From a virus: a stretch of 52,113 nucleotides of DNA. Positions 19,677-49,079 of this stretch are shown in pieces; the stretch's first letter is position 1, and each line of letters starts with the position of its first letter. A program made the position numbers and the translations under genes. The notes beneath the pieces are model-generated. The model did no database searches. It worked only from the letters and a program-made list of their open reading frames with translations, and was not told the DNA's origin. The stretch covers positions 1-52,113 of the IMG/VR virus record IMGVR_UViG_3300034061_005181; one strand, 5' to 3'.

Positions 19677-21692
19677 TTACAATTTATCTCCACCTGCATT
19701 TAATCTTGAAACTGTATGTAGTGTTGTTTCCCATGCACCAGGACTTATTTTATGATCAACTTTTGTAACAGTAAAAACCATACCAGCATTTCTATACCTC
19801 AAAGGAATAAGATTGGTTGTAATAACATTTCCAAAAGTAAAACCACTAACACCATCGATAGTTATGTTCAAGTCCACTGGATATATTACTTTGTTAAGCC
19901 AATGGGCGCCAGAACCTTCTGGTGTAACTTTTTTTAATTTTGTTAATAAAGCACGATAAGTTTCACACCAATTATTATTAAAACCAGCGGTTCCAAAAGA
20001 TAACAAATGATTATCAATTTCCTTTTGAGTATCACCTGGTTCAGTTCTAGCACCTTTTGCCTTCGATGATACAGTAGCTTCAAGATTTGAAGAATTAGCT
20101 CCTCTTGCCTTAGTAAATGCAGCAGCCGCAAGTGGTCCAGGTGGCTTAGATGAAACGGAAATATTTTTTATTATTGGTTTGAAAATACTCGCCTCAAATT
20201 CAAACGGTGGAACTGCCTTTGTACTAGTATGTTCCGGAGATAAATTAGTATCTTCTATCGATAGAATGGCTCTGTTTTTCCTAGACGAAAGACTATTAAA
20301 ATTAGTTCCTCCGCTTAGAGCTGGTCTAAGCTGATCTGGATTATCACATAAAACTGGAGAAAATTGATATACGTCTCCAGATGCAACATTTATTCTTTTG
20401 AGCATCGTTTCAAAAAAATTTGTTATATTTTTGTATGGTATATTTGCAGCATTTTCTTCTATAAAACCTCTATATGTTTCCTTTATGTAATTTACACCGA
20501 GTAATATACCAGATATAGAAATTTGATCAGCATTGTTTGATCCAGGTGGTCCTGCCGGGACAGGTGGTTTTCCAGGAGGACTATACATAGCTGGGTTAAA
20601 AATTCCAGAAAGTGGACCTGGAGCTACTGTATATGGTGGGGTAACTCCACCATATGATCCCATAGTATTTGATGGAAATATAACATCCTGTGGATATGAT
20701 GACTTAACGTTTGGTAAATATTGCGTAGTATTACCATCTGATAATAATTCAAATAATTCACCTAAAGCCGTATTATCACCACCCTTTTCATATCTATCTA
20801 TTAAATCATTACCAAACCAAACCAATCTACCAACGGAAGTATACCAGTATGTTTGAAACGATGTTCCACCTGAATCATCCGCGGTTGGCCATACAATTGC
20901 AACATAATCAATTAAACCATTTTTAGTTGCTGTTGATGGGACATATCTACCATCACCGGCAGTAGTCAATACAACACTTCCACTCAAACTAGCAAGATCA
21001 CTATCTATTATAGATGCCAAATTATTTCCCTGTATAGCAACGCCTGCAGGATCAACCACACCAGGAGGTGGATCTTTCACACTTTGATCACCAGACAGAC
21101 CAATTGATAAAGATGCAGCAGAAACAATCGAAACCTCCGTTGTCATTGAAAAATCTGCATTGAATGACCAATTAAAATTGTTTATTATTCCAGTAAACGC
21201 CATTCTACATCTTGGACCACCAACTGACCAACCCCATGCCATTTGAACCTCGTGACCCGGAATTAAAAATGCCTGTTCTACTCCTGCCATTGTAAATCCA
21301 TTTGTGTCAAGTCTAGGCCAGTATAAAAATGTAAATTTACCACGTAATAATGATCCAATCGTACCATCATTTGTAACGTCCATTGATTGTAATAATGGAT
21401 AACGAGGTGCATTTCTAACCGAATTGTATAATGTCAAATCGCCACTTCTATCGGTCATTGCTCTTGGACCAGGAAAACCTAAATTTATATTTCCAGTATC
21501 ACCACGCACATGACCATATGCAGTTTTACCGTAAGACCAATCTAATGTTGCTGTTCCAACTCCACGTGTTCCAGGTACACCGGATCTAACTCGTGCTCCA
21601 TAATGAGCTGCTCTTCTTTGTAATTCACCTCTTGTTCCAGAATCAACTGAATTGTAAAACGGATTGTAATAGTTACCACCAAAATTTGGCAT
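19677..21692 (-). CDS. Baseplate hub-like structural protein, 671 aa
   Basis: Residues about 100-210 contain RGKFTFLYWPRLD, a PGHEVQMAWGW strand pair and FTGIINNFNWSFNADFSM, a pattern of early beta strands typical of baseplate hub proteins (gp27/gpD type): a membrane-side barrel with a short FTG.I..... strand. The middle is Pro/Gly-rich and low-complexity (around residues 355-390). The C-terminus returns to beta structure (SGFTFGNVITTNLIP). AGAGG precedes the ATG. It directly follows the LysM protein, the standard contractile-tail neighbour of the hub. Confidence 0.65.
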   Translation of the reverse strand: MPNFGGNYYNPFYNSVDSGTRGELQRRAAHYGARVRSGVPGTRGVGTATLDWSYGKTAYGHVRGDTGNINLGFPGPRAMTDRSGDLTLYNSVRNAPRYPLLQSMDVTNDGTIGSLLRGKFTFLYWPRLDTNGFTMAGVEQAFLIPGHEVQMAWGWSVGGPRCRMAFTGIINNFNWSFNADFSMTTEVSIVSAASLSIGLSGDQSVKDPPPGVVDPAGVAIQGNNLASIIDSDLASLSGSVVLTTAGDGRYVPSTATKNGLIDYVAIVWPTADDSGGTSFQTYWYTSVGRLVWFGNDLIDRYEKGGDNTALGELFELLSDGNTTQYLPNVKSSYPQDVIFPSNTMGSYGGVTPPYTVAPGPLSGIFNPAMYSPPGKPPVPAGPPGSNNADQISISGILLGVNYIKETYRGFIEENAANIPYKNITNFFETMLKRINVASGDVYQFSPVLCDNPDQLRPALSGGTNFNSLSSRKNRAILSIEDTNLSPEHTSTKAVPPFEFEASIFKPIIKNISVSSKPPGPLAAAAFTKARGANSSNLEATVSSKAKGARTEPGDTQKEIDNHLLSFGTAGFNNNWCETYRALLTKLKKVTPEGSGAHWLNKVIYPVDLNITIDGVSGFTFGNVITTNLIPLRYRNAGMVFTVTKVDHKISPGAWETTLHTVSRLNAGGDKL

Positions 21693-21694
21693 AA

Positions 21695-22033
21695 TTACCT
21701 CTCATTATTATTATAGTCATCCAAAAAGCTATAAATTCCAGAATTTTCAGTATAAAATGGTATCTTCAATATTATTCCTGGTGGAACATCTAAAGATCCT
21801 TTGCCCAAATTATTAGCCTTAGCAATAACAAACCAAAGAGTTTCATCTCCATAATATTCTCTTGCCAATATATCAAGTCTATCACCTTCTTGTGAAAGTA
21901 TTTGATTATTTTCTATATTAGAAAAATCCGGATAAAAAATGGTTGATACCCTTCTAACCATTTTCACATTACCATCGGTTTCTATTTTTTTAGATCCCGT
22001 AACAATAAATGTATTATCATATCTACTTGCCAT
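21695..22033 (-). CDS. LysM-domain baseplate protein, gp53-like
   Basis: A 112-residue protein whose second half is a LysM-type domain: EGDRLDILAREYYGDETLWF, then VIAKANNL and PPGIILKIPF. LysM proteins of this size (gp53 and P2 gpX types) bind the hub and join wedges or spike in contractile tails. The first half carries short strands (RVSTIFYPDF). AAGGAAA precedes the ATG, and an ATATTTAT motif is 16 nt upstream. It sits between the giant repeat protein and the hub-like protein. Confidence 0.85.
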   Translation of the reverse strand: MASRYDNTFIVTGSKKIETDGNVKMVRRVSTIFYPDFSNIENNQILSQEGDRLDILAREYYGDETLWFVIAKANNLGKGSLDVPPGIILKIPFYTENSGIYSFLDDYNNNER

Positions 22034-22081: not shown

Positions 22082-25000
22082 TTATGCTTCTATGTCCATT
22101 ACATTTATAGTATTTGCATCAGAATTTACATCTGGTCTGTCTTTTGGAATAACCTTTGGAACTTTATTTTCTTCTCCAAATTTAACAGTATAATGTTCAC
22201 TATTGTCTGTACCTGTAACTGGTTTATCGTCATACATTCTTATGTAATTTACCTTGTCATCACTATCCGGCATCAAACCTGTTTCAGGTGTTGTTCCGGT
22301 ATCATCATACAATTGATACATAATACCATTGTATTCTGGACGATAAACACCAACGGGTGTATAACCGACTGATACAGCAATGTGTTTTGGTAATTGTAAT
22401 GCACCAGGTGTTGAATAGTTATCTGGATATCCATTCTCAAATGCATCCTTTATATTTGCCCTATCATGATCCAAATGAGCAGTTTCCCATGTTGTTTGTG
22501 TATTATCAAACGTATATGACAAAGAATTTATGAATCCAGGAAGTTTTCTATACAAGTGTCCTATATTCAATCTGATAAGAGGACCTTTTATCAATCCGGC
22601 TTTTGTATATTCAGGTGCAGTCCATGATGCAAGATAATTTAATTTTCTCCAACTTGCCTTCATTTCATCGCGCGATCCAATGTGAACCACAAAATCGAAT
22701 GATATACTTCTTTCATATCCATCATAAACATACAATGGATCACCTCTACCCATGTATTTAATAGGATTCCATTTCGGATTATGAGAGTCACTTATATTTC
22801 CAAATGTTGCACGGAAAGGTATAATTTCAACTTTATCACCGTCTTTTGCTTTTAAGTTTACTCCAGTAAAATAAAATTCTATCAAATCATTTGTACCACG
22901 AATAGAAGTATTATTGTAAGCACCCTTTTCATAAACTAAATCAGTTGTCAAGTCTGCAGTTGTTCTCTTGTAATCTAATATATTTATTCTATCGCCTCTA
23001 AACTCTCTTCCTGTTTTTAAAACTGGATGTGAAGCATTTGTAGTTGCATCTTTATTGTAAACAACATTTGATTTACCAACTAGTTTTTTATCGGCAGCAG
23101 GTGCACCATGTTCGCCCATCCCAAAATAAGTTTCCATATTTCTTTTTTTATAGTAACCACCCATGACATCTGGATCAGAAACAAAATTTTTCACAACAAA
23201 TCCATCAGTTTCCCTATCGTAAACATCAAACCTAAAATCATTAAATCTTCTTGAAAAACTTTCAGTGAATCTTCCTTGTCTTGCACTAAATTCATCCCTA
23301 CGCCTTAAATTACTATATGTTGCGGTTAAATATTTTTTTATAGGATCACCATCATCGTTTGTTAGCGAATAAGCTTCAATTCCATCGAGATTCAATCCTT
23401 CTGCATTAAATGCCGTAATTCTATTTAAATTTGCACTCAAACTTTTTCTTGTTGGTTTATATGGATTCATACCAACAATTCTACCAACAGTTTCGTTTGG
23501 TAATGAAGAACTAACAATTCCGATTGGAGATGAATTTGGATCACTTGGTCCATCTACAAATAGTGCAGATAATCCTCTTATATCCCCAAATATTTTTCTT
23601 CCGTTCTCATTGTAATTCCTCATTATTACATCAGTATATGTATTTGGAATTTCTCCAGTTGAATCATATATGTTGTAAAATTGAGTACGTCTTGCAGTAT
23701 CGGGATATGCAGGATTTGTTGAACCGGCATTGAATAAAGAAGAACCTAAAAAGGACAATGCACCACCTGCACTAAAATTATTGGATCCAGGTAATGGTGT
23801 AGCAAAAGTTGAATCTGCAAAACCAGATGGCAAATTTCCATCGGTAGTGTAGTATGTCAAATATGGATGTCTTGCTCTTCTTATTTTTGTACCACCGATA
23901 CCGAGTGGAGCATTTGGTCCACCAAACCAAGTTGATATTCTATGTATTTTTGAATGTCCAAGAAATTCTGATGATTGAACATTGTTTGGTTCTAATGTTC
24001 TGAATGAATTGGGTAACAATTCTTTCATCAAACCTATAAGTCTGCTATACTTTGTTTGTTGTCCATCACTTGTTGGTGTTTCTAATTGTTTGAAATAGTT
24101 TACCACCGTATCATTTGGTGGACTTGCCAATTCTCTATTTATAGTTGATGTTTCATATTTGTTTAATGATCTACTATCAATTGCACCCAATAAACTATGT
24201 CTTGGAACTCTCAATCCAATTGCACTTCCAGCAACATTAACTATTGTTGCCAATGGATTAAAAATTTGTGTAGGTGACATTCCAAAAGTTGTTATGAAAT
24301 CAACAATAGCACCAAGAGCACCACCTTGTGGATCAGTATCAACATTTGGATTCATCAACTGTAAACCAACTTGTTTTACATTCCACAACAAACCTTTCGT
24401 GCTTATTAACCATTTTCCAATTCGTTGTGCATCATAAACTGCCCTTTCAGCCATAGTTGTTGCACCACCTCGTATAAGACCTTCATCGAATGTAGTTCCG
24501 AATCCCCATTTTTGACCTATATCTCTTACAACAAATGGTTGATCACCAACAAACCCACTTTCATATGCATCTTGTTGCAGATTATATTTTGAATATTGTT
24601 GATCCAAAGGAGATGGTGAGTTTTTAGTAATTGCCCATTTTGCCAAGTAACCTTTACTTTCAGTTACATCTTTCATTGTTTTGGCATAAGGTTTACCGTA
24701 ATAACTTGACTCAGCTTTTATTTTCGATTCTGGAACTTGATTTGTTAATGATGCAAAAACTGTTGAATTTCCAGATGTCCATAATTTCTTACCCAAACCT
24801 TTTGGGGCATAATCTTCTCTGTCTTTTAAATTCAATCCACCTGAATTTCTAAAAGTTTCTACAAAATTTCTTTGAATTAAATCATAATCATATTTTAATT
24901 CCAAATCTATTATTGGATATAATGTACCATCATATGTTGTCATTTTTGGCATAAATCCAGTTTTAATTTCTGGTTTAAATCCAAAAAAGTTGGTTAATGG

Positions 25001-28000
25001 AATGCCATTTATTTTAGATTGATTTGGTCCGTTCTCTGTTGAATAAAAAGAAAATTCTGACTTTAGATAATATTGGGTTTTATCTATAAAGAATTTTCTA
25101 AATCCAGGTCTAGTTCTAGATGTTGTCAAACCACCTAAATTATTTATAGTTATCGGATTCATTGGATTGTTTGGTCTTACCAATGCACCAAAATATCCAA
25201 CTTCCGGAGCATCTTGACGAATGCCATCCCAATCAAATACACTTGTATCTTTTTTGTAAAACGTTTCTAACAATTTACTAAACGTTGAGAAACCGTTTGC
25301 ATTTGTATTCTGAAAATAATTAACAGATGGTGCATTATTTTTAAAACCATCCCAATCAAATTGTGATGATTCTGGAATGTATTTAGTTGCATACAAAGCT
25401 GCAAAAGTATGAAAACCATCGGTTGTATTTTTATTAGTTAAGTCAAAATAATTTATTGCAGGAGCAGCAGTTCTAACGCCATCCCAATCGAAACCCGATG
25501 ACTCAGGTACATATTTTGTATTGTATAGTTCAGCAAATGTATGAAAACCATCAGTTGTGTTTTTCTTGGTTAAGTCAAAATAGTCTACAGCAGGAGCCGC
25601 AGTTCTCACCCCATCCCAATCAAAATTTGATGATTCTTTTACATACTCTGTTACCAATGGAATTGCGAATTTAGTAAATCCGGGTGCGTTTGTATTTGAA
25701 AAATAATCAACAAAATTTTCTAATGATGTTCTCGGTGATCCATCCCAATCAAATCGAGAAGACTCTGGAACATATTCAGTTACCAATGGAATTGCAAATT
25801 TTGTAAAACCAGCTGCGTTTGTATTTTGAAAATAATCAACAAAATTTTCTAATGATGTTCTTGGTGATCCATCCCAATCGAAACGGGAAGATTCTTTTAC
25901 ATACTCCGTTACTAACGGTATTGCAAATTTTGTAAAACCAGGTGCATTTGTATTTTGGAAATAATCAACAAAATTTTCTAGTGATGTTCTTGGAGATCCA
26001 TCCCAATCAAATACAGAAGATTCAGGAACATACTTTGTATCATATAATTGTGCAAATGTATGAAACCCTGCAGTAGTTTTTTTAGTAGTAGTTAAATCAA
26101 AATAATCTACAAATGGAGCGGCGGATCTTGCACCATCCCAATCAAATACAGAAGATTCAGGAACATATTTCGTATCGTACAATGCAGCAAATTTATGAAA
26201 TCCAATAGTAGTATTTTTCTTTGTTAAATCAAAATAATCAACAACAGGAGCATCTACTCTAGCACCGTCCCAATCAAATACAGAAGATTCAGGAACATAT
26301 TTCGTATCATATAATTGAGCAAACGTATGAAAACCTGCAGTAGTCTTTTTTACAGAACTCAAATCAAAATAATTTACAAATGGAGCTGCTGATCTAAAAC
26401 CATTCCAATCAAAAACGGATGCCTCTGGAATATATTTTGTATCATACAATTGAGCGAATGTATGGAATCCAATCGTTGTATGTTGTTTTATTAAGTCAAA
26501 ATAATTTATTGCAGGTGCATCTTGTTTTGAACCGTCCCAATCAAATTGTGATGATTCTGGAACATACTTCGTATCAAGTAAAACAGCAAATTTATGGAAA
26601 CCATCTGTTGTGTGTTTCTTTGTCAAATCAAAATAATCAACAACAGGAGCATCTAATCTTAAACCGTCCCAATCGTATTGTGATGAGTCTGGAATATATT
26701 TAGTGTCATACAATTGAGCGAATGTGTGGAATCCCTCTGATGTAAACCGAGATATTAAATCGAAGTAATTTATATTTGGAGCGTCTACTCTTGCACCATT
26801 CCAATCATATACCGATGATTCTGGAATATATTTTGAGTCTAACAATGATGCAAATTTGTGAAAACCTGCATTAGTATATTGATTTGAAATATCAAAATAA
26901 TTTACTTCTGGTGCTAATGTCCTTGTACCATTCCAATCAAAAACAGATGCATCAGGTATGTATTTTGTTTCCAAAAATGGAGCAAATGTTTGGAATCCAG
27001 CAGTTGTAAATTTAGAAGAAACATCAAAATAATTTACAAATGGTGCTTGTTCTCTTACACCATCCCAATCGAATCTCGATGAATCTGGAATATACATTGT
27101 TTCCAAAAATGGAGCAAATATATGAAAACCTGCAGTTGTAAATTTTGAAACTAAATCAAAATAATTTACCGATGGTGCATCTTGACTATCACCATCCCAA
27201 TCATATATTGAAGATTCTGAAATATATTGTGTATCGTACAATCTTGCAAATTTATGAAATCCGGCTTTTGTATGATTTTTCTTTATATCAAAATAGTTCA
27301 CAACAGGAGCGGATTCTCGTTTACCGTCCCAATTAAAAATTGATGAGTCGGTATTATATTTTGTGTCATATATTCCTGCAAATTTGTGAAAACCTGCCTT
27401 TGTATATGTTTTACTCACATCGAAATAATTAACTTCCGGTGAAGCAGATTTTTTTCCAATCCAAGTAAATTGTGAAGAATCTCTACGATAATCACTTTCA
27501 TATTGTTTTGAAAATGATTTAAATCCAGTTATACTAAATTTTTTGGGTATATCCAGAAAATCTGTTTCTGGTATTTCTTCAAATCCAAACTGTGATGTAT
27601 TTTGTAGATACAACGTTCTCAATGGTTCAACAAAAGTTTTAAATCCAGTTGCATTTTTATCTTGAATAAAATTTACAGACGGTATATTTTTACCAGTCCA
27701 AACGTATTTTGATCCACCTTTGTATTCAGTCTCTAACAAATCTGCATTAGCAGTAAAACCATTTGCATTTATATTTTTGAAAAAATTTACTTCTTGTACC
27801 CCATTTACACTATAATCAGATTTGGATGCATCCTCATTTCTTCCAGATGGATTTGTTCTGATAACATTATCAACATTTAATTCACTATTATCTTTTTCTT
27901 GATTCGAAAGCAAATTATATCGTACAGTATCAACAATTTGGTCAGTAGACATACTTGCCAATCTTGATATTGGAACATATCTTGTAACTTTACCATTTAT

Positions 28001-28969
28001 ATTCAAATCACTATTATCCGTTTCTTGATTTGTGGATAAATCAGATTTTGATATTTTTATTTTTGGATCCGTAACTAATCCTGAAATTTCTGTTTCCCTA
28101 TCTATTTCCGGAGATTGATCACCTCTTTCAAAAAACAATGTGCTTCTTTGTAAAGATATTTCTGGATCGATAACATTATTCAATGGTGAAAACATATCTT
28201 TATTGATAACAACCGATTGACCAGTTAAATCATTAAAAAGAGAGGGTCTGTTTGATACATCTATATTTGGATTAACAACATCATCGTTAGGTAAAACTAA
28301 ACCCTTTGAATTTAATATGGGTGATTGTTCTTTTCTATCAAATGATTTTTCCGGAACATTTATTTTAGTTTGAGGATCTGTTATATTATTTGTTGATTCA
28401 TCATTTTTAGATATGCTCGGTGATGATTGTGATCTATCAAATGATTGTTCTGGAACATTCAATTCTATATTTGAAGAAAATTGTGTTTCTGTTATTGCAA
28501 ACGGTTTTATTTCAATATCGGATTTATTCAATTTAGATCTAAACTGTTCTTTTCTTAATTTTGATATTTCAGATATTACATCTTCTTCATAAACATCCAA
28601 AATACTGTTAGTATCAAAATCACTATTTACAGGAGAAAGTTTTGATACACTATTTATCAAAATATTTTTTATAGGAGTTCTTTTTATATCATCTAACTTT
28701 GTTTGACCTAATTTAGTTTCAAGTGATGTGAAATTACTCGTTGGTTTTTTAATATCATCCAACTTACTATTGCCAAGCAAACTTTCAATTGGAGCAGTTT
28801 TCCATTCGCCTATCGATGGTCTTAACTGTGCCAATCTATCAGATATTGGTTGAAGTGTTGCAAAATTATTCACATCCGTTGCCTTGGATGAAGCAGGTGA
28901 ATCCTTTTCTTCCTTTGAAACGGTTTGACGAAATTTTGACAAATCTGATTTTAAATCTACTAATGACAT
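22082..28969 (-). CDS. Giant repeat-containing baseplate/tail protein, 2295 aa
   Basis: Three regions are visible. Residues 1-390 are low-complexity and polar, with degenerate repeats (SFDRSQSSP, SFDRKEQSP). Residues about 394-1256 hold about 20 tandem units of 37-45 residues with consensus V.YFD....T..GFH.FA.L.DTKY.P.SS.FDWDG. Residues about 1256-2295 are a globular structural region. Near its end lie YVYDGYERSISFDF, a SRDEM helix and WRKLNYLASWTAPEY, a pattern I associate with baseplate tube-initiator proteins of T4-like phages (gp48/gp54 type). The gene follows the tape measure gene, as expected for that role. The repeats may form a long extension. Confidence 0.82.
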   Translation of the reverse strand: MSLVDLKSDLSKFRQTVSKEEKDSPASSKATDVNNFATLQPISDRLAQLRPSIGEWKTAPIESLLGNSKLDDIKKPTSNFTSLETKLGQTKLDDIKRTPIKNILINSVSKLSPVNSDFDTNSILDVYEEDVISEISKLRKEQFRSKLNKSDIEIKPFAITETQFSSNIELNVPEQSFDRSQSSPSISKNDESTNNITDPQTKINVPEKSFDRKEQSPILNSKGLVLPNDDVVNPNIDVSNRPSLFNDLTGQSVVINKDMFSPLNNVIDPEISLQRSTLFFERGDQSPEIDRETEISGLVTDPKIKISKSDLSTNQETDNSDLNINGKVTRYVPISRLASMSTDQIVDTVRYNLLSNQEKDNSELNVDNVIRTNPSGRNEDASKSDYSVNGVQEVNFFKNINANGFTANADLLETEYKGGSKYVWTGKNIPSVNFIQDKNATGFKTFVEPLRTLYLQNTSQFGFEEIPETDFLDIPKKFSITGFKSFSKQYESDYRRDSSQFTWIGKKSASPEVNYFDVSKTYTKAGFHKFAGIYDTKYNTDSSIFNWDGKRESAPVVNYFDIKKNHTKAGFHKFARLYDTQYISESSIYDWDGDSQDAPSVNYFDLVSKFTTAGFHIFAPFLETMYIPDSSRFDWDGVREQAPFVNYFDVSSKFTTAGFQTFAPFLETKYIPDASVFDWNGTRTLAPEVNYFDISNQYTNAGFHKFASLLDSKYIPESSVYDWNGARVDAPNINYFDLISRFTSEGFHTFAQLYDTKYIPDSSQYDWDGLRLDAPVVDYFDLTKKHTTDGFHKFAVLLDTKYVPESSQFDWDGSKQDAPAINYFDLIKQHTTIGFHTFAQLYDTKYIPEASVFDWNGFRSAAPFVNYFDLSSVKKTTAGFHTFAQLYDTKYVPESSVFDWDGARVDAPVVDYFDLTKKNTTIGFHKFAALYDTKYVPESSVFDWDGARSAAPFVDYFDLTTTKKTTAGFHTFAQLYDTKYVPESSVFDWDGSPRTSLENFVDYFQNTNAPGFTKFAIPLVTEYVKESSRFDWDGSPRTSLENFVDYFQNTNAAGFTKFAIPLVTEYVPESSRFDWDGSPRTSLENFVDYFSNTNAPGFTKFAIPLVTEYVKESSNFDWDGVRTAAPAVDYFDLTKKNTTDGFHTFAELYNTKYVPESSGFDWDGVRTAAPAINYFDLTNKNTTDGFHTFAALYATKYIPESSQFDWDGFKNNAPSVNYFQNTNANGFSTFSKLLETFYKKDTSVFDWDGIRQDAPEVGYFGALVRPNNPMNPITINNLGGLTTSRTRPGFRKFFIDKTQYYLKSEFSFYSTENGPNQSKINGIPLTNFFGFKPEIKTGFMPKMTTYDGTLYPIIDLELKYDYDLIQRNFVETFRNSGGLNLKDREDYAPKGLGKKLWTSGNSTVFASLTNQVPESKIKAESSYYGKPYAKTMKDVTESKGYLAKWAITKNSPSPLDQQYSKYNLQQDAYESGFVGDQPFVVRDIGQKWGFGTTFDEGLIRGGATTMAERAVYDAQRIGKWLISTKGLLWNVKQVGLQLMNPNVDTDPQGGALGAIVDFITTFGMSPTQIFNPLATIVNVAGSAIGLRVPRHSLLGAIDSRSLNKYETSTINRELASPPNDTVVNYFKQLETPTSDGQQTKYSRLIGLMKELLPNSFRTLEPNNVQSSEFLGHSKIHRISTWFGGPNAPLGIGGTKIRRARHPYLTYYTTDGNLPSGFADSTFATPLPGSNNFSAGGALSFLGSSLFNAGSTNPAYPDTARRTQFYNIYDSTGEIPNTYTDVIMRNYNENGRKIFGDIRGLSALFVDGPSDPNSSPIGIVSSSLPNETVGRIVGMNPYKPTRKSLSANLNRITAFNAEGLNLDGIEAYSLTNDDGDPIKKYLTATYSNLRRRDEFSARQGRFTESFSRRFNDFRFDVYDRETDGFVVKNFVSDPDVMGGYYKKRNMETYFGMGEHGAPAADKKLVGKSNVVYNKDATTNASHPVLKTGREFRGDRINILDYKRTTADLTTDLVYEKGAYNNTSIRGTNDLIEFYFTGVNLKAKDGDKVEIIPFRATFGNISDSHNPKWNPIKYMGRGDPLYVYDGYERSISFDFVVHIGSRDEMKASWRKLNYLASWTAPEYTKAGLIKGPLIRLNIGHLYRKLPGFINSLSYTFDNTQTTWETAHLDHDRANIKDAFENGYPDNYSTPGALQLPKHIAVSVGYTPVGVYRPEYNGIMYQLYDDTGTTPETGLMPDSDDKVNYIRMYDDKPVTGTDNSEHYTVKFGEENKVPKVIPKDRPDVNSDANTINVMDIEA
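25202..27790 (-). repeat. Tandem protein-coding repeat array, about 20 units
   Basis: About 863 residues of the giant tail protein are built from about 20 tandem units of 37-45 residues sharing V.YFD/Q..., GF..FA, TKY.P.SS.FDWDG. The last units differ by type: most have YFDL..K.TT.GFH, while three consecutive ones have YFQNTNAPGF with DGSPRTSLEN linkers. Those three are nearly identical in DNA at a spacing of 129 bp (around 25709, 25838 and 25967), which indicates recent duplication. Confidence 0.9.
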
Positions 28970-29021: not shown

Positions 29022-32000
29022 TTATTCCTGAACTCGTCTTCCATATGTGTTATCAACTGCAACATTATATGATTTTTTGAAATTCATAACTGATTTTATT
29101 TCTTCTACTGTTTTTTCACCAAATTTTATTACAGTTGGTTTATTTGCAACATCTGATATTACTGCAATTAACGTATCAAGTTTTTTCTCAACATTTACCA
29201 TAGATGTTGAAGATTGTCCCGGTATAGCACCGGCTTGTTGTATATTTGTTTGAGCCGATGAAATTGATGTTGGAGTTGTTGGGGATAATGCAACTGTACC
29301 AGATGTTTGTGGTTTTACCGATTCTTTATTGGATTCACCACCACCAAAGAATGATGTTATTCCACCTACCAATGAACCAACTGCATTTGAAATTTTTGAA
29401 CCCACACCACCGCCGGAAACTTTGTCCATGACTTCTGACAATTTATCTACATTCATATTGTTAATTGTATCTGCAAGTATCTTCAATGAATTTGATACCT
29501 CTATCAAACTCTTTGATATTGATGACATTTTTGCCGGTTCTAATGATGTCATCAATTTTTGTATTTGTGTGAGTGGACCTTGACCACCCATTAGTTTACC
29601 AAATCCCTCTGCAAGTGCACTTCCACCAATACTTTTTACAAGTCCACTCAATCCATCACCGAATTGTTCTAATTTACTACCATCTATTTTTCCAAGATTA
29701 TCAGCCATTCCTTTCATAGCAGTTCCAATTCCAACTATACCAGCAACAACAATTCCTATTGTTTTGGGATCAACACTTGATATTATCTTCATCAGTTGAT
29801 CTATTGGACTATCACCGCCCACCAAACTACCAAGTGCATCCAATCCAGCACCAATACCACTACCTGCACCAAAACTAAAAATTGCCTCACCCAACTTCAT
29901 CAATCCATCTGCAACTTTACCTATGGTCACAGGATCTAATTTAGTTAAGGACATCAGTTTATCAATAACAGTTACTATACCACCTGCGATAGCATTTATT
30001 ACTTTTACTATACTATCACCAACACTATTTATTACTCCAGATATGCCATCAAATACTGATTTTATTATCGGTGCAATTTCTTGTATTGCCTTAACAAATA
30101 CAGTTTCCAACACATCTGCAATTTTAATCAATACAGGCATAAATGCAATTAAAACTTTACCAACAGTTTCTATTACTTTTTGTATTATTGGTCCTGCTAT
30201 TTCAAGTGCTTTTACCAAAACCTTACCAATTATTTCTGCAAACTTCATCAATACAGGAGCGATTGCCTTTATCGCAGGTGCAGCCATGTATAAAGATGCT
30301 CCTAATGCAAGAAAGAATAAACCAACTGCAATGGCAACTGTACCCATGGGTACAACAGGAGTAGATAATGACCTACCTAATGCCTCCAAACCTTTTCCTA
30401 ATCCAGTCAATATTCCTTCAAATGCAGAACCAATTCCTTTACCGACTGATTTCAAAGCACTACCCAAACCCTTTCCAAAATCTGCAATCTTTTTACCAAC
30501 AGATGATGCCTTGCCTGCCATCTTATCCGTTTTTTCTAATTTTGCATTTTGTTTATCAAGTAAGGCATCTGATTTATCTGCACCACCTCCACCGAGTTTA
30601 CCTAATGCCTTTCCGGCAATACCGCCCATTTTACCACCGACTTTACTTAATGATCCACCTATATTTGATAAAATAGATTTACCAACATCCATTACTTTTT
30701 CTTTCATCATGCTCAGACCGGCACCTATCAATGATTTCGCAGCAAAAGCACCACCTATTAGTGTCACAGCTTTTAATACGCTACCAAAACCGGCTTCTGT
30801 TTGTCCAACTGCACCTGTGACATTTTCTACACCAGTTGTTACTTTACCAACTTGATCGGAAACTTGACCTACACTATCAGTAACTTGTTGTGTTGTATCT
30901 TGAACTCCTCCGAACATTCCAAGTATAGATGTAACTGGTTTTAATATACTACCCAATATACTAAACATCGTTTTTGCTATAGGAATTATACCTCTTATTA
31001 TTCCTGATATTGAGTTTATTATTGTATCAAAATCACCGCCTGCCTCGGCAGCATCCAACATACCATGAACCATCTCTAATATCGGAGAAAGTAATTTTGA
31101 TAGTTTTTCTTGAACTTTTTCAAGAGCATCAGACATACGTTTTTTTACTTCTGCGGATTCTTTTTCTTTTGCAAGTTGTTCAATATATTGTTTAGTTTGT
31201 GCACTCCCGCCTTTTGCCAATTCTGCATTTAGTTGTTTGGAGTTCATTGCCTGCAGTGCAGTCATTCTTTCTTGGCTCATATTCAAATCTTTCAATTTTT
31301 GTGCATTCGTAAGCATCTCTGTCATTTCTTCAACAGACATACCCATTGCTTCTGCCATAGACTTTTGCCCAAGTCTATTCATCTTTGTAAAATCTTCTAA
31401 TGAACCGGCTTGATTTAACAATTCATCTTGTAGTCCTGCAATATCACCATTCAATGCAAGTTCTCGTGCCTTATCTAACTGTATGTTTTTACCTGTTAAG
31501 ACTCTTGCCTCCATCTCTTTTGTCAATGATGATTCAATATCCATCAATCCATCACCAATATCTTGAACTTTTTTCAAATCATGTCCAAGTGCTTGTGCCT
31601 TTTGTGCAGCTTTAATCAACTCTTGTGTTCCACCTTTAAATGCAACTTGAACACTTGGTGGTATTTTAGCAAGGACTTTTAACGATTCTTTTGCAGTCAT
31701 TATACCTTTTCCAAGTGTTGTTGCTTCTTTGGTTAATTGTCCCATGCTCTTTCCACTCATCGCAGAGACGGTTTGGATATTTTTTATCTCATCACTACTT
31801 AAACCAAATTTTTCACTAAGCACGGTTACATCTTTTACCAATTGTTGTGCTTGTTTGTTTCCACTTAGCATTTGCCCAGCAATATCAATTCCACCCATTA
31901 TTTCTGATGTAGTTTTTATACCCTTAACAACCTCTTTTGAATTTATACCGACCAATTTCATTTGACCAGCCATATCAACGGTAGCATCCCTTAACTTGAA

Positions 32001-33161
32001 TGATTCTTTTCGTGTTATACCAAATTCTTGACCTATTTCAGCCGCTTCCGAATCTACCTTTCCAATCGCACCAACAAGAAAATTAACAGCAGAAAGTAAT
32101 AAACCTATTCCAAGAGCTGCCAAAAATTTAGGTGCAAGAGAAATCATACTCTTTAATCCACCCAATCCTTGTGAGAACGCATCTTTAAAATTACCGTTTA
32201 ATCCAGATTTGACTGCCTCTGCAAATTTTTTCTTCATCTCATCTGCAGTTTTATCTATACCCATTATCTTATTTATTTTATCACCGGCAGGAAATTTGTT
32301 TATTAAACTACCGGCACCAATTCCCATGTTAGCTATTGAACCTGATATTAAATCAATAGTATCTGCTTGTTTTTGTAGAGCATCATTTTCGCTTTGTATA
32401 TCCTTAAATCGACCTTTTATCAAATCCAATGATTTTTTTGCTTGATTATATTGATCCTTGGTCATGTTACCACGTTCTTGTTCTAAACTTGCCTCTCTTA
32501 CTTTTATATCAAGAGCCATATCAGATAAATCTATTGCCTTAAATGCCCCATCTTTTGCCCTTTCTTTTGCCATTTGCAATTTATTTTCTGTGCTTAATAA
32601 GTCTTCAGCAAGAGAACCTGCTTCTGTTTGTGCGTTTATGTATCTTGATTGTTGGAGTACAGTCCCTTCTGTCTCTAATTTCTGTGATTGTAATGAATCG
32701 GTTATTGTCTGATATGCAAAACCCTGTGTTTTTATGTAATCTAATGTTTTTGCACTATCCCCATTGATTGCTTGTATAAGTGCAGATGATGCAGAATGAT
32801 CTTTAGTTATATTACCAACGGATCTACTAATATCCTTAACAGTTGAAGAAAGTTTACCACTCAAATCATTTTGATCACTGATATATCCGGCGGTAGAACC
32901 ATGTAGTTTATTCGTTTCTTGTAATCTTTGATAAGACTCTTTATCTATTTTTTCAATCTTTTTTCGTATTTCTTCTTCTTTTTCGATACTATCTGTGCGT
33001 AAAGCTTCGAGCTTAATAAGCTTTTCGGTATCAGAAACTTCACTACTGATTTGATCAGAAATTTTTTCTTTTAATTTTAAAATTTCTTTTTCAATACCAA
33101 GTCGTTCTTCTGTTAAATTATTTAGTTTCGATTCTAATTCTTTATCTTTTTCATTTGCCAT
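29022..33161 (-). CDS. Tail tape measure protein, 1379 aa
   Basis: A long, largely helical protein. Residues 1-50 are a coiled coil (LESKLNNLTEERLG). Two hydrophobic segments appear near residues 340-365 (FLAALGIGLLLSAVNFLVG) and 950-975 (VAIAVGLFFLALGASLYMAA), as in tape measures that enter the host envelope. Low-complexity Gly/Lys blocks follow residue 850. Position after sheath, tube and the chaperone pair fits exactly. At 1.5 A per helical residue, 1379 residues would set a tail near 200 nm (inference). GGTGA precedes the ATG. A terminator hairpin with a promoter motif in its loop lies immediately upstream. Confidence 0.93.
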   Translation of the reverse strand: MANEKDKELESKLNNLTEERLGIEKEILKLKEKISDQISSEVSDTEKLIKLEALRTDSIEKEEEIRKKIEKIDKESYQRLQETNKLHGSTAGYISDQNDLSGKLSSTVKDISRSVGNITKDHSASSALIQAINGDSAKTLDYIKTQGFAYQTITDSLQSQKLETEGTVLQQSRYINAQTEAGSLAEDLLSTENKLQMAKERAKDGAFKAIDLSDMALDIKVREASLEQERGNMTKDQYNQAKKSLDLIKGRFKDIQSENDALQKQADTIDLISGSIANMGIGAGSLINKFPAGDKINKIMGIDKTADEMKKKFAEAVKSGLNGNFKDAFSQGLGGLKSMISLAPKFLAALGIGLLLSAVNFLVGAIGKVDSEAAEIGQEFGITRKESFKLRDATVDMAGQMKLVGINSKEVVKGIKTTSEIMGGIDIAGQMLSGNKQAQQLVKDVTVLSEKFGLSSDEIKNIQTVSAMSGKSMGQLTKEATTLGKGIMTAKESLKVLAKIPPSVQVAFKGGTQELIKAAQKAQALGHDLKKVQDIGDGLMDIESSLTKEMEARVLTGKNIQLDKARELALNGDIAGLQDELLNQAGSLEDFTKMNRLGQKSMAEAMGMSVEEMTEMLTNAQKLKDLNMSQERMTALQAMNSKQLNAELAKGGSAQTKQYIEQLAKEKESAEVKKRMSDALEKVQEKLSKLLSPILEMVHGMLDAAEAGGDFDTIINSISGIIRGIIPIAKTMFSILGSILKPVTSILGMFGGVQDTTQQVTDSVGQVSDQVGKVTTGVENVTGAVGQTEAGFGSVLKAVTLIGGAFAAKSLIGAGLSMMKEKVMDVGKSILSNIGGSLSKVGGKMGGIAGKALGKLGGGGADKSDALLDKQNAKLEKTDKMAGKASSVGKKIADFGKGLGSALKSVGKGIGSAFEGILTGLGKGLEALGRSLSTPVVPMGTVAIAVGLFFLALGASLYMAAPAIKAIAPVLMKFAEIIGKVLVKALEIAGPIIQKVIETVGKVLIAFMPVLIKIADVLETVFVKAIQEIAPIIKSVFDGISGVINSVGDSIVKVINAIAGGIVTVIDKLMSLTKLDPVTIGKVADGLMKLGEAIFSFGAGSGIGAGLDALGSLVGGDSPIDQLMKIISSVDPKTIGIVVAGIVGIGTAMKGMADNLGKIDGSKLEQFGDGLSGLVKSIGGSALAEGFGKLMGGQGPLTQIQKLMTSLEPAKMSSISKSLIEVSNSLKILADTINNMNVDKLSEVMDKVSGGGVGSKISNAVGSLVGGITSFFGGGESNKESVKPQTSGTVALSPTTPTSISSAQTNIQQAGAIPGQSSTSMVNVEKKLDTLIAVISDVANKPTVIKFGEKTVEEIKSVMNFKKSYNVAVDNTYGRRVQE

Positions 33162-33217: not shown

Positions 33218-33469
33218 TTATTTACGCACAGATGGTTTTGAGAATCGAGGTGGAGATGCTGGTGTTTTCTGTGATTCTGAATTTACAGAATTATTTTCTT
33301 CATCCAATTTTTTCTTCACCAATTTTATGTAATAATGTCTCAAATATATTGGAAGATTATACACCTCATCCCAAGTGAACCCACCTTTTCCAAAATAACA
33401 CAAAGAAAATATTTCTTCATGTAAACCCAATTTATATTCAGGTGGTAGGCCAAAAAAATGATACCTCAA
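33218..33469 (-). CDS. Tail assembly chaperone, second reading frame (T-like), 83 aa
   Basis: The frame opens at a TTG at 33469 inside the end of the gp26-family gene and has no ATG start. It opens with FFGLPPEYKLGLHEEIFSL, continues YFGKGGFTWDEVYNLPIYLR, and ends Ser/Pro/Lys-rich. It lies between the gp26-like gene and the tape measure, as the T frame does in lambda-type G/GT loci. It is probably expressed as a fusion by frameshifting at an A7 tract (T7 on the coding strand). A separate TTG start cannot be excluded. The expected role is to keep the tape measure protein soluble and guide tube assembly. Confidence 0.8.
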   Translation of the reverse strand: MRYHFFGLPPEYKLGLHEEIFSLCYFGKGGFTWDEVYNLPIYLRHYYIKLVKKKLDEENNSVNSESQKTPASPPRFSKPSVRK

Positions 33470-34304
33470 TCGGTATGTCTAACTCCTTTACCTCACCAGT
33501 AGTATCGGAAACGAATGTGAAAGTCATATCAAGATCGGGAGATATTGTTCTCATATACTCTCTTAATGCCCTCGAATCTAATGCAAATAATTGATTATCA
33601 ACAAAATCATTTATAGCAGCTCTGCCTGTTTCACCATCAACTGCAATAATAATATGTTTGAGTCTTGTTGTTAATTCCTTATCTATTCCGGTTTTAACAA
33701 GAGTTTTATTCATAGATTTTATTTCAGACTGAATCTGTTTATCTATGTCATGTGTTAATAATCTAAATGTAACGGTTCTTTTTGAATTTGGTAAAGTAAA
33801 ATCAAACGTATTCTTACGCGACTCAAATAAGCTGTAATCGACCTCCTTGTGCTCAATTTGAGTTAAATCTATTGTTACTTTTTGTTTATTGCTGGTAGAA
33901 AAAGGATCATCAATTTCTACCGTATAATCTTTACCATATCCCAAAATTCTAGCTGCAACCATAATTGCATTTTTGTCACCAACATATAAATCACCATAAT
34001 TGAAAGGTGTAACAATCAAAGACTCAAACAATTTATCTAAAACCACACCTTGTTTAATAAGGTTCTGTGATGTTAAAATATCTTCTTCTCTAGCAGTCAT
34101 ATATTTCATTTCTATCGTTCCATCTGCCAAAGGGTGTCCTTCTGGATACAAGAGACCCTTTGAAGGCAATGGTATAATTTCCGTTGGAAAGTTAGTTTTT
34201 TTAACAGAAGTTTGTTTATGATCGGCAAGAAGTTGTGCCTTAATTTCGGCATCTGAAACAATTTCTTCATTGGCTACATTGTAACCGGTTGGAATTTTTG
34301 TCAT
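33438..34304 (-). CDS. gp26-family tail assembly protein (probable tape measure chaperone, G-like), 288 aa
   Basis: LPSKGLLYPEGHPL, MKYMTAREEDIL and SQNLIKQGVVLDKLFESLI match the T4 gp26 (T4 baseplate protein) family. An Ile/Asp-rich middle and a DMTFTF strand follow, ending SFFWPTT. The frame ends 32 nt inside the start of a second small ORF, with a T7 run in the overlap. This lies between the tube and tape measure genes, the position of lambda G. I infer it is the upstream part of a chaperone pair rather than a fixed hub subunit. AGGATTT precedes the ATG; an ATATTTAT motif is 50 nt upstream. Confidence 0.83.
   Translation of the reverse strand: MTKIPTGYNVANEEIVSDAEIKAQLLADHKQTSVKKTNFPTEIIPLPSKGLLYPEGHPLADGTIEMKYMTAREEDILTSQNLIKQGVVLDKLFESLIVTPFNYGDLYVGDKNAIMVAARILGYGKDYTVEIDDPFSTSNKQKVTIDLTQIEHKEVDYSLFESRKNTFDFTLPNSKRTVTFRLLTHDIDKQIQSEIKSMNKTLVKTGIDKELTTRLKHIIIAVDGETGRAAINDFVDNQLFALDSRALREYMRTISPDLDMTFTFVSDTTGEVKELDIPIEVSFFWPTT
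33452..33458 (-). other. Probable programmed frameshift site (T7 run) in tail chaperone overlap
   Basis: Seven A on the plus strand, T7 on the coding strand, stand in codons TCA TTT TTT TGG of the gp26-like gene, 12 bases before its stop. The second frame reads CAT TTT TTT GGC. Passing from one to the other needs a +1 or -2 slip on this run. Tail chaperone genes of other phages use -1, +1 or -2 slips at such runs. The second ORF has no ATG. Confidence 0.6.
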
Positions 34305-35002: not shown

Positions 35003-37444
35003 TTAAGCACCTGGGAACGCAGCACCTGTGTTTTGAATGTTGAAATCAAGTATGATAAATTCAGCAGTCTTAGAAGGTTGCAAGAACAATTGACCATAAA
35101 GGATGTTGCGGTCAATAATGTCTGGTGTATTATTACTTTCATCCATGATAACACGGAAAGCATAAAGACCTTGACGTTGTTGAATTGATTCAAGATATGG
35201 GTTCACGATATTCAAGAAACGAGTTCTTGTTTGTGATGTGTTTTGTTCAAACACAAGGTATCTTGTAGAAGAAGCAATAAACTTCTTAGCAGCAATCAAC
35301 AATCTACGAACATTGATACGGTCAAGAGCAGATGGACGACCTTGAAGTGTCTTCTGGCCCCACACACATACTCCAGTTGATGGGAATACTGCGATAGGAT
35401 TGATTCTTGCCTCATATAATGTATCTCTTTCAGTTTGTGTCAATCGTGTCTTAACTTCTATCACTTCTGTAAGACCACCACGATTCAAACCAGCAGGAGC
35501 GAACCATTCGGCTGCAACACGGTCATTAAATGCCATTACACCAGGAAGAACAACTGATGGTGGAACCCATACAGGTTTGTTTCTATCCATGTCAAGAATC
35601 TTAACCCAAGGATAATATGTTGCAGAATAATTACTATCAAATCCTTCCATAGTAGAAACTGCAGTTGCAATATTATCGTTGATACCGATGGAATCCATTA
35701 TCAAGAATGCATCACCTCTGTCTTCACATATATCATTTGCGTATGATGTTATGGGTGAATGTAAAGAATGTAATACGCCTGGAATACCAAGTAAGTTTAT
35801 ATCAAATTCATCCGCATTTGAAATTGTATCAAGTGCCTTTTTATATGAAGTATATCCGTCTGCACCAGTTGATGAAATATCAAATCCTTGTGTATTGTTA
35901 GCTGTTATGTAAGTTCCTGTTTTCTTTTGGAGATTTGGTTTATGACCATCAAATCCACCTTGGAATGGCACCATGAACTTGCGAGTATCAAGTGATGTAT
36001 TTGTTGTCAAATTGATTGATCCTGTATATGGACTAGCCGCAGTTGGATAATTTGCACCAACATCTTGTGTGTAATCACCTAAATAGAAATCAACATTTGA
36101 ACCAGCAGTTTGTTTTGTTGAAACTGGAAGTGGTCTCAAATATGAGAAGTTATCAGTTTCACCAAAATCATAACTAAAACCAAAATATACTCTGCGATTA
36201 TATGAAGAAGCAATAGTTTGACTTGTTACATATGTTGCAGCAGCCGGTTGAGTAAATCCTGTTGGAATAGGTGATTTCAAAGCACGGAATCCAAAAGGAA
36301 CAAGATTTGGTGATGCAGCAGCATTTGTGACTGAATCACTTGTTTCAACTCTAACATAATTAGATTTATTTGAATAGTCACCATTAACAACAACTTTGCC
36401 TTCACTAGTAATTGTTATGTATCTGTCACCAATAACTCTACCAATATATTTTGGTGAATTTGGATCCAAATTACATCTAAATGTTTCAACTACATTTGGT
36501 CTGATGTCTTCATCTTGTGAAGTAAATGGTGTCTGTGGTAATTTAGATTGATCAACAAATCTAACTACAATATCAAATTCACCATATTCAGAACCAGCTA
36601 TTGTTCCGGCACCTTTGATATTAGCAATACCAACTTTTACTTCATAGTTTGAATGAATACCATGAGAGAGTGTATGGAAACGGAAAAGATCCTGTGTTGT
36701 TGAACCAACTTTCTGTGATGTTATCCATGGTGTTGATGCCTCTAAATAATCATCTGTAAAGTCCCAATCAACCGGTGTTGCAGAACCAGTTTCTATGATT
36801 ATGCGTGTTCCATTATCCGCAGCCAATGATGCAGATGCCTTATTACCAAATATAACATAATTGTAAACGGCATTTGTTCCATATGGGTTATATCCATACA
36901 AATCCCCAATATATGATGTATCTTCTGGATTTATAGAAGCACTAAAAGCAGTTCCATCCTGATTTATGGCATTTGTAAAAGACGATGTATCGGTTCCGAA
37001 TGATCCTGATAGTGTCAATACAAAACTACCACTTAAATTTGAAGTTGCTGTTGATTTAGCAAATAAAGAATCAGAATCGTCACTAGTAACTACAAATGTT
37101 GGATGTAACATAGTAATTAGAGATTTACCCCAAGATCCTGTAGCAACTATTGCTATTGGGTGCTTTAATGAATATCCGCCTGATCCTAACACACGAACTA
37201 TCGTTGCACTAGGGGCGTTATTTAAGTAGTTTTTAGCAGTGTATGGTAAATATGAATGTTCATATGTTCCACCAAACTTTGTTGTGAAGTCACCAAACCC
37301 GTTTACAACGGTAGGGACAAACGCAGGTCCTTTTAATGTTGGTCCTACGAGAGCTGCACCAATAGCACCTATTCCTTGTGGAAGGAATGAAAGGTCTTTT
37401 TCTATGGTAAAGACACCAGGACTTACAATTCTTTCAGTAGCCAC
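35003..37444 (-). CDS. Tail sheath protein, gp18-like
   Basis: The contractile sheath subunit, about 813 residues. The N-terminus IVSPGVFTIEKDLSFLPQGI is the conserved sheath start. The C-terminal third has TQTERDTLYEARINPIAVFP, VWGQKTLQGRPSALDRINVR and FEQNTSQTRTRFLN, the handshake-domain signatures. I choose the GTG at 37444 (MATERIV) because GGAG is spaced 6 nt from it; the ATG at 37450 would overlap the ribosome binding site. The insert of about 250 residues in the middle is Ser/Thr-rich and probably surface exposed. An ATATTTAT motif is 36 nt upstream. Confidence 0.95.
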   Translation of the reverse strand: MATERIVSPGVFTIEKDLSFLPQGIGAIGAALVGPTLKGPAFVPTVVNGFGDFTTKFGGTYEHSYLPYTAKNYLNNAPSATIVRVLGSGGYSLKHPIAIVATGSWGKSLITMLHPTFVVTSDDSDSLFAKSTATSNLSGSFVLTLSGSFGTDTSSFTNAINQDGTAFSASINPEDTSYIGDLYGYNPYGTNAVYNYVIFGNKASASLAADNGTRIIIETGSATPVDWDFTDDYLEASTPWITSQKVGSTTQDLFRFHTLSHGIHSNYEVKVGIANIKGAGTIAGSEYGEFDIVVRFVDQSKLPQTPFTSQDEDIRPNVVETFRCNLDPNSPKYIGRVIGDRYITITSEGKVVVNGDYSNKSNYVRVETSDSVTNAAASPNLVPFGFRALKSPIPTGFTQPAAATYVTSQTIASSYNRRVYFGFSYDFGETDNFSYLRPLPVSTKQTAGSNVDFYLGDYTQDVGANYPTAASPYTGSINLTTNTSLDTRKFMVPFQGGFDGHKPNLQKKTGTYITANNTQGFDISSTGADGYTSYKKALDTISNADEFDINLLGIPGVLHSLHSPITSYANDICEDRGDAFLIMDSIGINDNIATAVSTMEGFDSNYSATYYPWVKILDMDRNKPVWVPPSVVLPGVMAFNDRVAAEWFAPAGLNRGGLTEVIEVKTRLTQTERDTLYEARINPIAVFPSTGVCVWGQKTLQGRPSALDRINVRRLLIAAKKFIASSTRYLVFEQNTSQTRTRFLNIVNPYLESIQQRQGLYAFRVIMDESNNTPDIIDRNILYGQLFLQPSKTAEFIILDFNIQNTGAAFPGA

Positions 37445-37480
37445 TATCATCTCCGATAAATTAAAGAATTAAATTCAAAT

Positions 37481-46285: not shown

Positions 46286-47353
46286 TTATTTCAAACCTGC
46301 TAATTTACGTAAACGATTTGCCATCACATCACCTTCATTTAAGATGTTTTTAGATGGACGTGTGCTTGCTGTTGGTTTAGATGCAAAAGATTCCTTGATA
46401 GGTTTAACCTTTGTTGTTCTAAACGATTCAGACAATGTTGCAAAAACCAATTTGACTTCACGAAGACTTGATGCACGATCAAAGTTTTCAATGACAGTCA
46501 TTTTTTGTTTTTCGCTAAGTGAATGCTTGCGGAAAAGTTTGTTAGAGAAGAGCAATTTTGAGTTCAAAAGATTGACTTCATTGATTTTAGAACGTAAGAA
46601 AGAAATTACAGCATATGCTTCACGAAGTCTAGCTTCAGCAACTTCTTTTTCCTTTTCTTCTTCAGCTTCTTCAACCTTCTCAGATTCGTCTTCTTCCTCA
46701 CGGAGAGCACGAAGAACTTCTTTGATGTCTACTTCTTCTTCATCTTCACCTTCTTCAACAGTTTCTTCTTCACCTTCTTCCTCACGGAGAGCACGAAGAA
46801 TTTCTTTGATTTCAGCAACTTCTTCGGAATCTTCATCTTCTTCTTCAACGAGTTGAACGAGTTTTTCCTTCTTGTCTTCTGTACTGTCATCTGATGCAAC
46901 TGCTGATGGTTTCTTGTTATCACCGGTTCCGATTTCAGATGAATCAATGTCTTCTTCTAATTGACGAATAATTTCCATCAATTCCTCATCCATTGTTTCC
47001 CCTTCATCTTCACCTTCTTCCATTGCTGGTTCTTCTTCATCTTCACCTTCTTCAATTGCTGATTCTTCTTCAGCTTCTTCCATTGGTTCTTCTTCTTCGC
47101 CTTCGCCTTCTTCCATAGCAGGTTCTTCATCATCACCTTCGCTATAGAATCCGTATTCTTCTACGGGTGCTTCTTCTTCACCCTCGCCTTCTTCCATTGG
47201 CTCTTCGGCTTCTGCCTCCTCTGCCAACTTTTGGGAAAGCATAGACTGCAAACGCGGAGTGAATGCTTCTTCCAATGCAAGTTTAGCATTTGCCAATGCT
47301 ACTTCCTTAACGGCTTTTGCATCTGCAATAGCTTCTTTCAATAAATCATTCAT
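46286..47353 (-). CDS. Prohead core scaffold, gp22-like, 355 aa
   Basis: Very acidic: residues about 50-235 contain repeated Glu/Pro blocks (EEGEGEEE, EPMEE, EDEEEP). Before and after lie helical segments. The C-terminus is basic (MANRLRKLAGLK), like the capsid-binding ends of scaffold proteins. An internal near-duplication repeats IKEILRALREEE and IKEVLRALREEE 84 nt apart. Start at the ATG 47353 with GGAG spaced correctly; the TTG at 47365 would overlap that site. N-terminus MNDLLKEAIADA has an L-K-E site. It sits between the protease cluster and the capsid gene, the T4 gp22 position. Identity by context and composition. Confidence 0.78.
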   Translation of the reverse strand: MNDLLKEAIADAKAVKEVALANAKLALEEAFTPRLQSMLSQKLAEEAEAEEPMEEGEGEEEAPVEEYGFYSEGDDEEPAMEEGEGEEEEPMEEAEEESAIEEGEDEEEPAMEEGEDEGETMDEELMEIIRQLEEDIDSSEIGTGDNKKPSAVASDDSTEDKKEKLVQLVEEEDEDSEEVAEIKEILRALREEEGEEETVEEGEDEEEVDIKEVLRALREEEDESEKVEEAEEEKEKEVAEARLREAYAVISFLRSKINEVNLLNSKLLFSNKLFRKHSLSEKQKMTVIENFDRASSLREVKLVFATLSESFRTTKVKPIKESFASKPTASTRPSKNILNEGDVMANRLRKLAGLK

Positions 47354-47414
47354 AAAAATCTCCAACTATTTTTAGTGTTATTTTAAACACCAATTGCAAT
47401 AAAAATAATATCGG

Positions 47415-47460: not shown

Positions 47461-47589
47461 TTACTTTTTTTCGTTTTTTTCGGTGGATTTTTTTACAGGA
47501 CCATACTGAAACAGTGATTTTATATCACTTTCAGTATACATATAACGTTTATCACGGTCTTTTGTATCTATTTTCTTCTCATCTGCCAT
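47461..47589 (-). CDS. Small hypothetical protein, 42 aa
   Basis: A short ORF that starts 11 bases inside the end of the ADP-ribosyltransferase-like gene (ATGGCAGATGA) after GAGGAAAA. It reads MADEKKIDTKDRDKRYMY and ends KSTEKNEKK, all charged. T4 has small prohead genes at this place, so a prohead core role is plausible by position only. A strong 13-bp inverted repeat lies in its coding sequence (47504-47536). Confidence 0.5.
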   Translation of the reverse strand: MADEKKIDTKDRDKRYMYTESDIKSLFQYGPVKKSTEKNEKK

Positions 47590-48841: not shown

Positions 48842-48851
48842 TTCATCTCCA

Positions 48852-49079
48852 TTAAATATTTTCAGAATCAATTTTACGTTGTCTTCTGATAGCAGCATTT
48901 CTTTTTTCTGATTTTTTCTTTGATGGTTTAATATATTCCATACGATTTTTATATTCTTCAAGAATACCAGCTTCTTTCACTTTACGTTTAAAAACCTTAA
49001 TCATCGTATCTACATTCATTCCACCTGCTTTAACTTTTACATGAGCAGGACTTGATGTGGTATAAACTCTGTCTGACAT
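48852..49079 (-). CDS. rpsU: bS21-like ribosomal protein (phage-encoded S21)
   Basis: A 75-residue basic protein. VKAGGMNVDTMIKVFKRKV, then EAGILEEYKNRMEYIKPS and KRNAAIRRQRK, match bacterial S21: the N-terminal strand, the FKRKVEKAG helix and the R..YEKPS turn followed by the basic helix. In bacteria, S21 sits near the anti-Shine-Dalgarno region of the 30S subunit and aids initiation. Phage copies have been reported in several large phages and may bias ribosomes to phage mRNAs. AAGGAAT precedes the ATG. It is in the head operon, 10 nt before the ADP-ribosyltransferase-like gene. Confidence 0.92.
   Translation of the reverse strand: MSDRVYTTSSPAHVKVKAGGMNVDTMIKVFKRKVKEAGILEEYKNRMEYIKPSKKKSEKRNAAIRRQRKIDSENI

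Follow-up and report, generated by a model that had tools for sequence, protein, structure and literature searches.

The 52,113-nucleotide window (the whole stretch of viral DNA that was analysed, IMG/VR record IMGVR_UViG_3300034061_005181) is part of a T4-like phage, with genes for a gp23-type capsid protein, RecA-like and DnaB-like proteins and ribonucleotide reductase, and with tail genes for sheath, tube, tape-measure protein (TMP) and a LysM/wedge protein. The tail module includes a 2295-codon reading frame with an ATG start, and this gene and its neighbours are laid out as follows:

19677..21692, minus strand: neighbour of unknown family, 671 aa (no Pfam or PHROG match)
21695..22033, minus strand: LysM/baseplate-wedge-like neighbour, 112 aa (PHROG 7145)
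22082..28969, minus strand: gene for the giant tail-base repeat protein, 2295 aa (full-length Mel-JY01 homologue)
22184..25105, minus strand: conserved post-array core, residues 1289-2262, about 970 residues (alignments and structure model)
22349..22885, minus strand: tail-tube- or tube-initiator-like domain, residues 2029-2207 (model fold matches)
25106..27793, minus strand: FDWDG array, about 20 units of 41-45 aa, residues 393-1288 (motif, HMM and DNA repeats)
25625..26011, minus strand: three near-identical 43-aa SPRTSLENF-type units, residues 987-1115
27794..28843, minus strand: N-region with short 16-20-aa repeats, residues 43-392 (autocorrelation)
28844..28969, minus strand: conserved N-terminal peptide, residues 1-42, MSLVDLKSDLSKFR...NFATLQP (invariant alignment columns)
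29022..33161, minus strand: TMP gene, 1379 aa (PHROG tape-measure matches)

The giant reading frame is real and is no assembly artefact, because a full-length protein of 40.6% identity is annotated in the isolate Microcystis phage Mel-JY01 (WWT39329.1). This orthologue (2255 aa, annotated as a hypothetical protein) lies in the same gene order, and its array units differ in detail. A chance or artefactual frame is further ruled out by many homologues and by the unit PSSM, which gave zero matches against shuffles of the 1290 residues. The gene order sheath-tube-chaperone-TMP-repeat gene-LysM is kept in Mel-JY01 and Immutovirus, and the place of the repeat gene in the tail module, beside the TMP and LysM/baseplate genes, is that of a gp48/gp54-type tube initiator. 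The 671-aa neighbour is also conserved, and corresponds in place to the Immutovirus VanY-carboxypeptidase protein (L002:8922-11738). Between the tube and TMP genes lies a tail-assembly-chaperone-like pair (window 33218-34304, minus strand; also L001:9566-10646), consisting of a PF12322 reading frame ending ...SFFWPTT and an overlapping +1-frame reading frame (FFGLPPEYKLGLHEEIF...), which meet at a T run (ATTTTTTTGG). The overlap and frame are identical in Mel-JY01, suggesting programmed frameshifting. A gpG/gpGT-type tail assembly chaperone was rejected as an identity for the repeat protein, since this role of a small frameshifted pair fits 33218-34304 instead.

The array is defined by an FxWxG motif recurring every 43-45 aa (41 once) from residue 501 to 1245, preceded by degenerate units. 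A unit HMM gave 21 matches over residues 393-1260, or 20 under the final counting rule described below, with unit lengths of mostly 44 aa and some of 41, 43 or 45, and Tandem Repeats Finder reported a tandem DNA array at 25611-27259 with periods of 129/132 bp. An earlier note on this DNA had described a 2295-aa protein with about 20 tandem FDWDG units, and this description holds, the frame being open and the HMM and motif spacing in agreement. The same note had two repeat types alternating by block, which was not borne out, as the SPRTSLENF type (43 aa) forms a single block of three units and no regular alternation. Its 390 polar residues ahead of the array are present, but they are themselves repetitive, which it had missed: the N-region contains 16-18-aa units (SxDRxxQSPxI...), with autocorrelation peaks at lags 34, 16 and 50 across the clade, and 20-aa units (xxLGKTKLDDIKK) closer to the N-terminus.

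A model of six array units (66-row alignment) had pLDDT 55 and pTM 0.18 and was almost all coil, although a poor model is weak evidence for lack of fold; because it gave almost no secondary structure, the array seems to be an extended chain in need of a partner. The alignments used for structure models were without Mel-JY01 rows. The array is aromatic-rich and its units are polar, as might be expected of an external whisker, collar or carbohydrate-binding fibre, the earlier note's idea for this repeat protein of the baseplate; the length of such a fibre would be set by reach to the host surface. The repeats match no binding-domain fold or family in Pfam, PHROG, PDB or the six-unit model. The score of Pfam WDGH (PF25311) proved to be the sum of many 17-25-residue fragments over the repeats, of which no stretch passes alone, and the matches to Pfam RNA_capsid, W2 and small PHROGs were likewise repeat-summed fragments.

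The core following the array was modelled over residues 1289-2262 (52-row alignment, mean pLDDT 64.6), yielding a beta domain at the C-terminus that was predicted with confidence. This part of the model (residues 741-919, protein residues 2029-2207) matches the baseplate initiator of cyanophage A-1(L) (8kea, Z 8.8) and the T4 baseplate (5iv5, Z 8.3), and the domain also matches baseplate chains of AFP (6rao), PVC, pyocin and Mu (9ki1), as well as BFVD entries called gp48 or tail tube cap. The tail-tube-like beta fold of the ring-forming domain is thus present (Foldseek E down to 2e-5, VIA Z up to 10.4), and is common to T4 gp48/gp54 and to the A-1(L), Afp, Pvc, pyocin and Mu initiators. The Z scores of 7-10, obtained on a predicted structure, support a fold shared with tube-initiator, hub and tail-tube proteins and not a specific role. 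The C-terminal domain sequence has no Pfam, PHROG or PDB match, at thresholds that leave room for a distant relationship. The relation to tube-initiator and baseplate proteins put forward earlier therefore stands by fold (8kea and 5iv5 chains) and not by sequence. T4 gp48 and gp54 are about 320-360 aa. The repeat gene, like theirs, lies among the tail genes, directly after the TMP gene, whereas its product has 2295 aa, a repeat region of about 1290 residues at the N-terminus and no detectable sequence similarity to them.

A profile search for the C-terminal domain found at least 557 relatives in IMG/VR, with reading frames of 431 to 3136 aa at the loci examined; in a host search of GTDB genomes, relatives were not found. 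The N-terminal peptide (residues 1-42) is common to most members of the FDWDG clade and to several more distant relatives. FDWDG units occur in this one clade only, the other family members having no repeats or quite different ones, including 16-17-aa units (L079, L087), GRHTEG 16-mers (L072) and acidic units (LR756508.1). For example, Immutovirus gp235 (QQO92153.1, 716 aa) and the relatives in RM378 and LR756508.1 have a homologous C-terminal domain, in gp235 with a similar N-terminal motif, and all three are without FDWDG units. The LR756508.1 relative (L003:3810-8555, 1582 aa, from a 484-kb uncultured phage) has an acidic NESxVPxEDExFxH array in its linker, so that repeats of another type occupy the place equivalent to the FDWDG array. 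The A8-clade loci (e.g. L079, L084, L087) are shorter, with N-terminal 16-17-aa repeats (NQSSTGxPSVxYSVNT; GTGTPPNSYENEPLPGV) that have no sequence relation to FDWDG units and are uncoupled from TMP length. Proteins up to 3136 aa occur at L042, L043, L273, L280, L282, L293 and L302 and at L327, L332 and L333, and the FDWDG units of the L042 group contain loops of about 10-65 aa, with the unit count unchanged.

The length of phage tails is usually ascribed to a single ruler, the tape-measure protein. At the loci inspected, the gene directly upstream of the repeat gene encodes the TMP, and in the FDWDG clade repeat number predicts its length (r=0.949, n=42, one member per sequence cluster), with 18.0 TMP residues per repeat. 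Unit number compared between related phages, a check that the earlier note had proposed, therefore tracks TMP length; the note rightly gave the array a history of its own, although the total count is constrained by the TMP. A training fit over 32 clade members gave a TMP length of 525 + 18.9(0.8) per 44-aa unit + 1.17(0.07) per N-region residue (R2 0.964), in which one 44-aa unit equals 16.1 N-region residues, the N-region's own repeat length. Independent contrasts on the core tree gave 18.2(1.4) and 1.12(0.08), a ratio of 16.3 (R2 0.90). For all 54 sequences the exchange ratio was 18.9 (cluster bootstrap 16.3-26.0); it ranged from 11 to 25 by method, and from 15 to 19 for the better-fitting methods. 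The repeat total correlates with total TMP length at r=0.974 (r=0.939 by phylogenetic contrasts), whereas single TMP segments correlate poorly (r 0.13-0.72, with two end segments anti-correlated at -0.54), indicating that total TMP length is what is matched. Mel-JY01 conforms to the coupling (TMP 1348, fitted 1347).

Sister pairs display the exchange directly. L041 has 88 fewer array residues (2 units) and 32 more N-region residues than L037, with TMPs of 1188 and 1183 aa, and L038 has lost 88+41 array residues (3 units) and gained 31+16 N-region residues relative to L039, with TMPs of 1293 and 1289 aa. The comparison of L017 with L018 (+20+20+44 residues, +54 TMP residues) is weak, because the TMP insertion sits in a Gly/Thr-rich linker. 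A 44-aa unit thus has the same worth as a 16-aa unit, about 18 TMP residues, and loops within units add nothing. This coupling, the strongest signal found, is not predicted by a carbohydrate-binding whisker or free collar, and neither is the one-for-one replacement of 44-mers by 16-mers; an external fibre is accordingly very improbable, and the repeats probably make up an arm fitted to the tail and not a whisker that binds sugars.

The coupling was further assessed on new loci from a separate scan with array units. The residue-based formula gave r=0.35 on the raw new set, since some arrays were truncated and one group has loops inside its units, and arm length counted in residues was abandoned, as it fails for looped arrays (L042 group) and r falls. 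Under the final rule, in which a unit is counted if its HMM match covers the GF core, coefficients from the first 33 taxa gave r=0.913 and an RMSE of 26 aa on 21 new sequences, a supportive and not a blind test, because the rule was chosen once two other counters had performed less well on the new set and some of the sequences are close to training ones. With units so counted, the TMPs of the looped arrays (2837-2984 aa) were predicted within 7 aa. Counting by GF dipeptides (R2 0.865) or by strict PSSM (R2 0.886) was noisier and was discarded. Contrasts over the enlarged full-length set dropped to r=0.758, and the TMPs of the divergent L327, L332 and L333 were under-predicted by 38-70 aa.

On the same taxa, neither the 671-aa neighbour (range 635-798 aa; r=-0.20) nor the LysM gene (r=-0.05) tracks TMP length, against 0.97 and 0.95 for the repeats, and in two outgroup clades that belong to this C-terminal family arm and TMP length are uncoupled by contrasts (r=-0.07, n=70; r=0.07, n=17). 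The coupling is therefore specific to the repeat protein and to the FDWDG clade, and was rejected as a rule for the whole family. This confinement to one clade would suit an indirect coupling, in which TMP length and arm length would each depend on some third factor (the size of the virion or genome, the thickness of the host envelope, or exchange of tail modules) in the absence of physical matching, as would the correlation of core length with TMP before phylogenetic correction (r=0.64). However, core length loses its significance once contrasts and multiple regression are applied, the two neighbour genes show no such trend, and exact 44-mer/16-mer exchanges at constant TMP, together with indifference to loops, are unexpected from general size drift, leaving an indirect coupling quite unlikely. 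A long tail does not in general require an arm, since some relatives pair a long TMP with almost no arm (e.g. L068, a 798-aa protein with a TMP of 1009).

The reading that we narrowly favour is that of a tube-initiator-like baseplate protein, with a ring at the tube base and an N-terminal repeat arm running along the tail with the TMP. The C-terminal domain would sit in the ring, and the enlarged N-terminal part would stretch out along the TMP or tube as an arm made of repeated binding units, contacting the TMP or the inner tube wall. Each unit, whether of 16-20 or 44 aa, would occupy an equal stretch of its partner, about 18 TMP residues, and as the TMP lengthens or shortens selection would add or remove units, such that the arm stays matched. 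Such a ring and arm would explain the computed C-terminal fold, the gene position, the array model's lack of an autonomous fold, the equal worth of unequal units, the indifference to loops and the match to total TMP length. The long arm among the forms that the earlier note had suggested fits this reading, the six-unit model yielding no domain.

If the TMP is helical, about 18 of its residues would span roughly 27-31 Å. For TP901-1, a TMP of 347 aa and a length of 53 nm give a computed 1.53 Å per TMP residue (PMC5099701), and the T5 tail ring has a thickness of 40.6 Å (PMC8718954). One unit, at 27-31 Å, is less than one tail ring (~40 Å), leaving a picture of one repeat per ring unsupported as it stands; the alternatives are an arm with steps that do not follow the rings, or a TMP that is stretched out further in the FDWDG clade.

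The main rival is a tethered assembly chaperone, with repeats that coat the TMP before and during tube polymerisation and are then displaced or disordered in the mature tail. One unit would be placed per about five helical turns (18 aa), and coupling would arise since the coat must cover the TMP. The unit worth of about 18 TMP residues and the aromatic-rich array, predicted to be unstructured alone, are consistent with this proposal, as are the 11/18-aa aromatic repeats of known TMPs, including that of TP901-1, for which a chaperone of matching periodicity has been discussed (PMC5099701). However, no clear 18-19-aa period was detected inside the TMP (aromatic autocorrelation at 56, 14, 11, 60, 18 and others), and the intercept of about 525 TMP aa implies a coat that would leave part of the TMP bare. 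The separate, conventional frameshifted chaperone-like pair between the tube and TMP genes weakens the proposal somewhat further, and we regard it as unlikely.

The ring-and-arm protein resembles tape-measure proteins (lambda gpH, T4 gp29, TP901-1 TMP), which vary in length by repeat gain and loss and track tail length, in that its repeat count scales with the tail length determinant, the TMP gene. It differs in that a separate TMP is encoded next door, in that its array is predicted to be coil and not helical, and in that a role for it in tail length control is at most putative; it has no TMP family match in PHROG, whereas the neighbouring gene has several. A bolder and doubtful extension is that some contractile-tailed phages use two rulers, the TMP and a repeat arm on the initiator ring, with units of 16, 20 or 44 aa as equal axial steps, which jointly fix or check tail length. 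Judged from sequence, the arm may help to set tail length or may simply have to fit it. For a large and nearly undescribed T4-like phage group, the coupling provides a sharp quantitative constraint on tail building, in the form of a second tail-module protein with repeat number matched to ruler length across dozens of phages, and of two unrelated repeat types that replace each other at a fixed rate. It also leads to the concrete structural prediction that an arm follows the tail, and the natural length variants allow testing of how long assemblies are measured.

Elsewhere in the window, the sheath protein (35003-37450, minus strand; 815 aa) contains about 530 residues ahead of its Pfam sheath domain. 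Glu-rich low-complexity tandem repeats are present at 46655-47134 and 48384-48528, within reading frames 46286-47365 and 47579-48961, which adjoin the gp23-type capsid gene and may encode prohead core or scaffold proteins.
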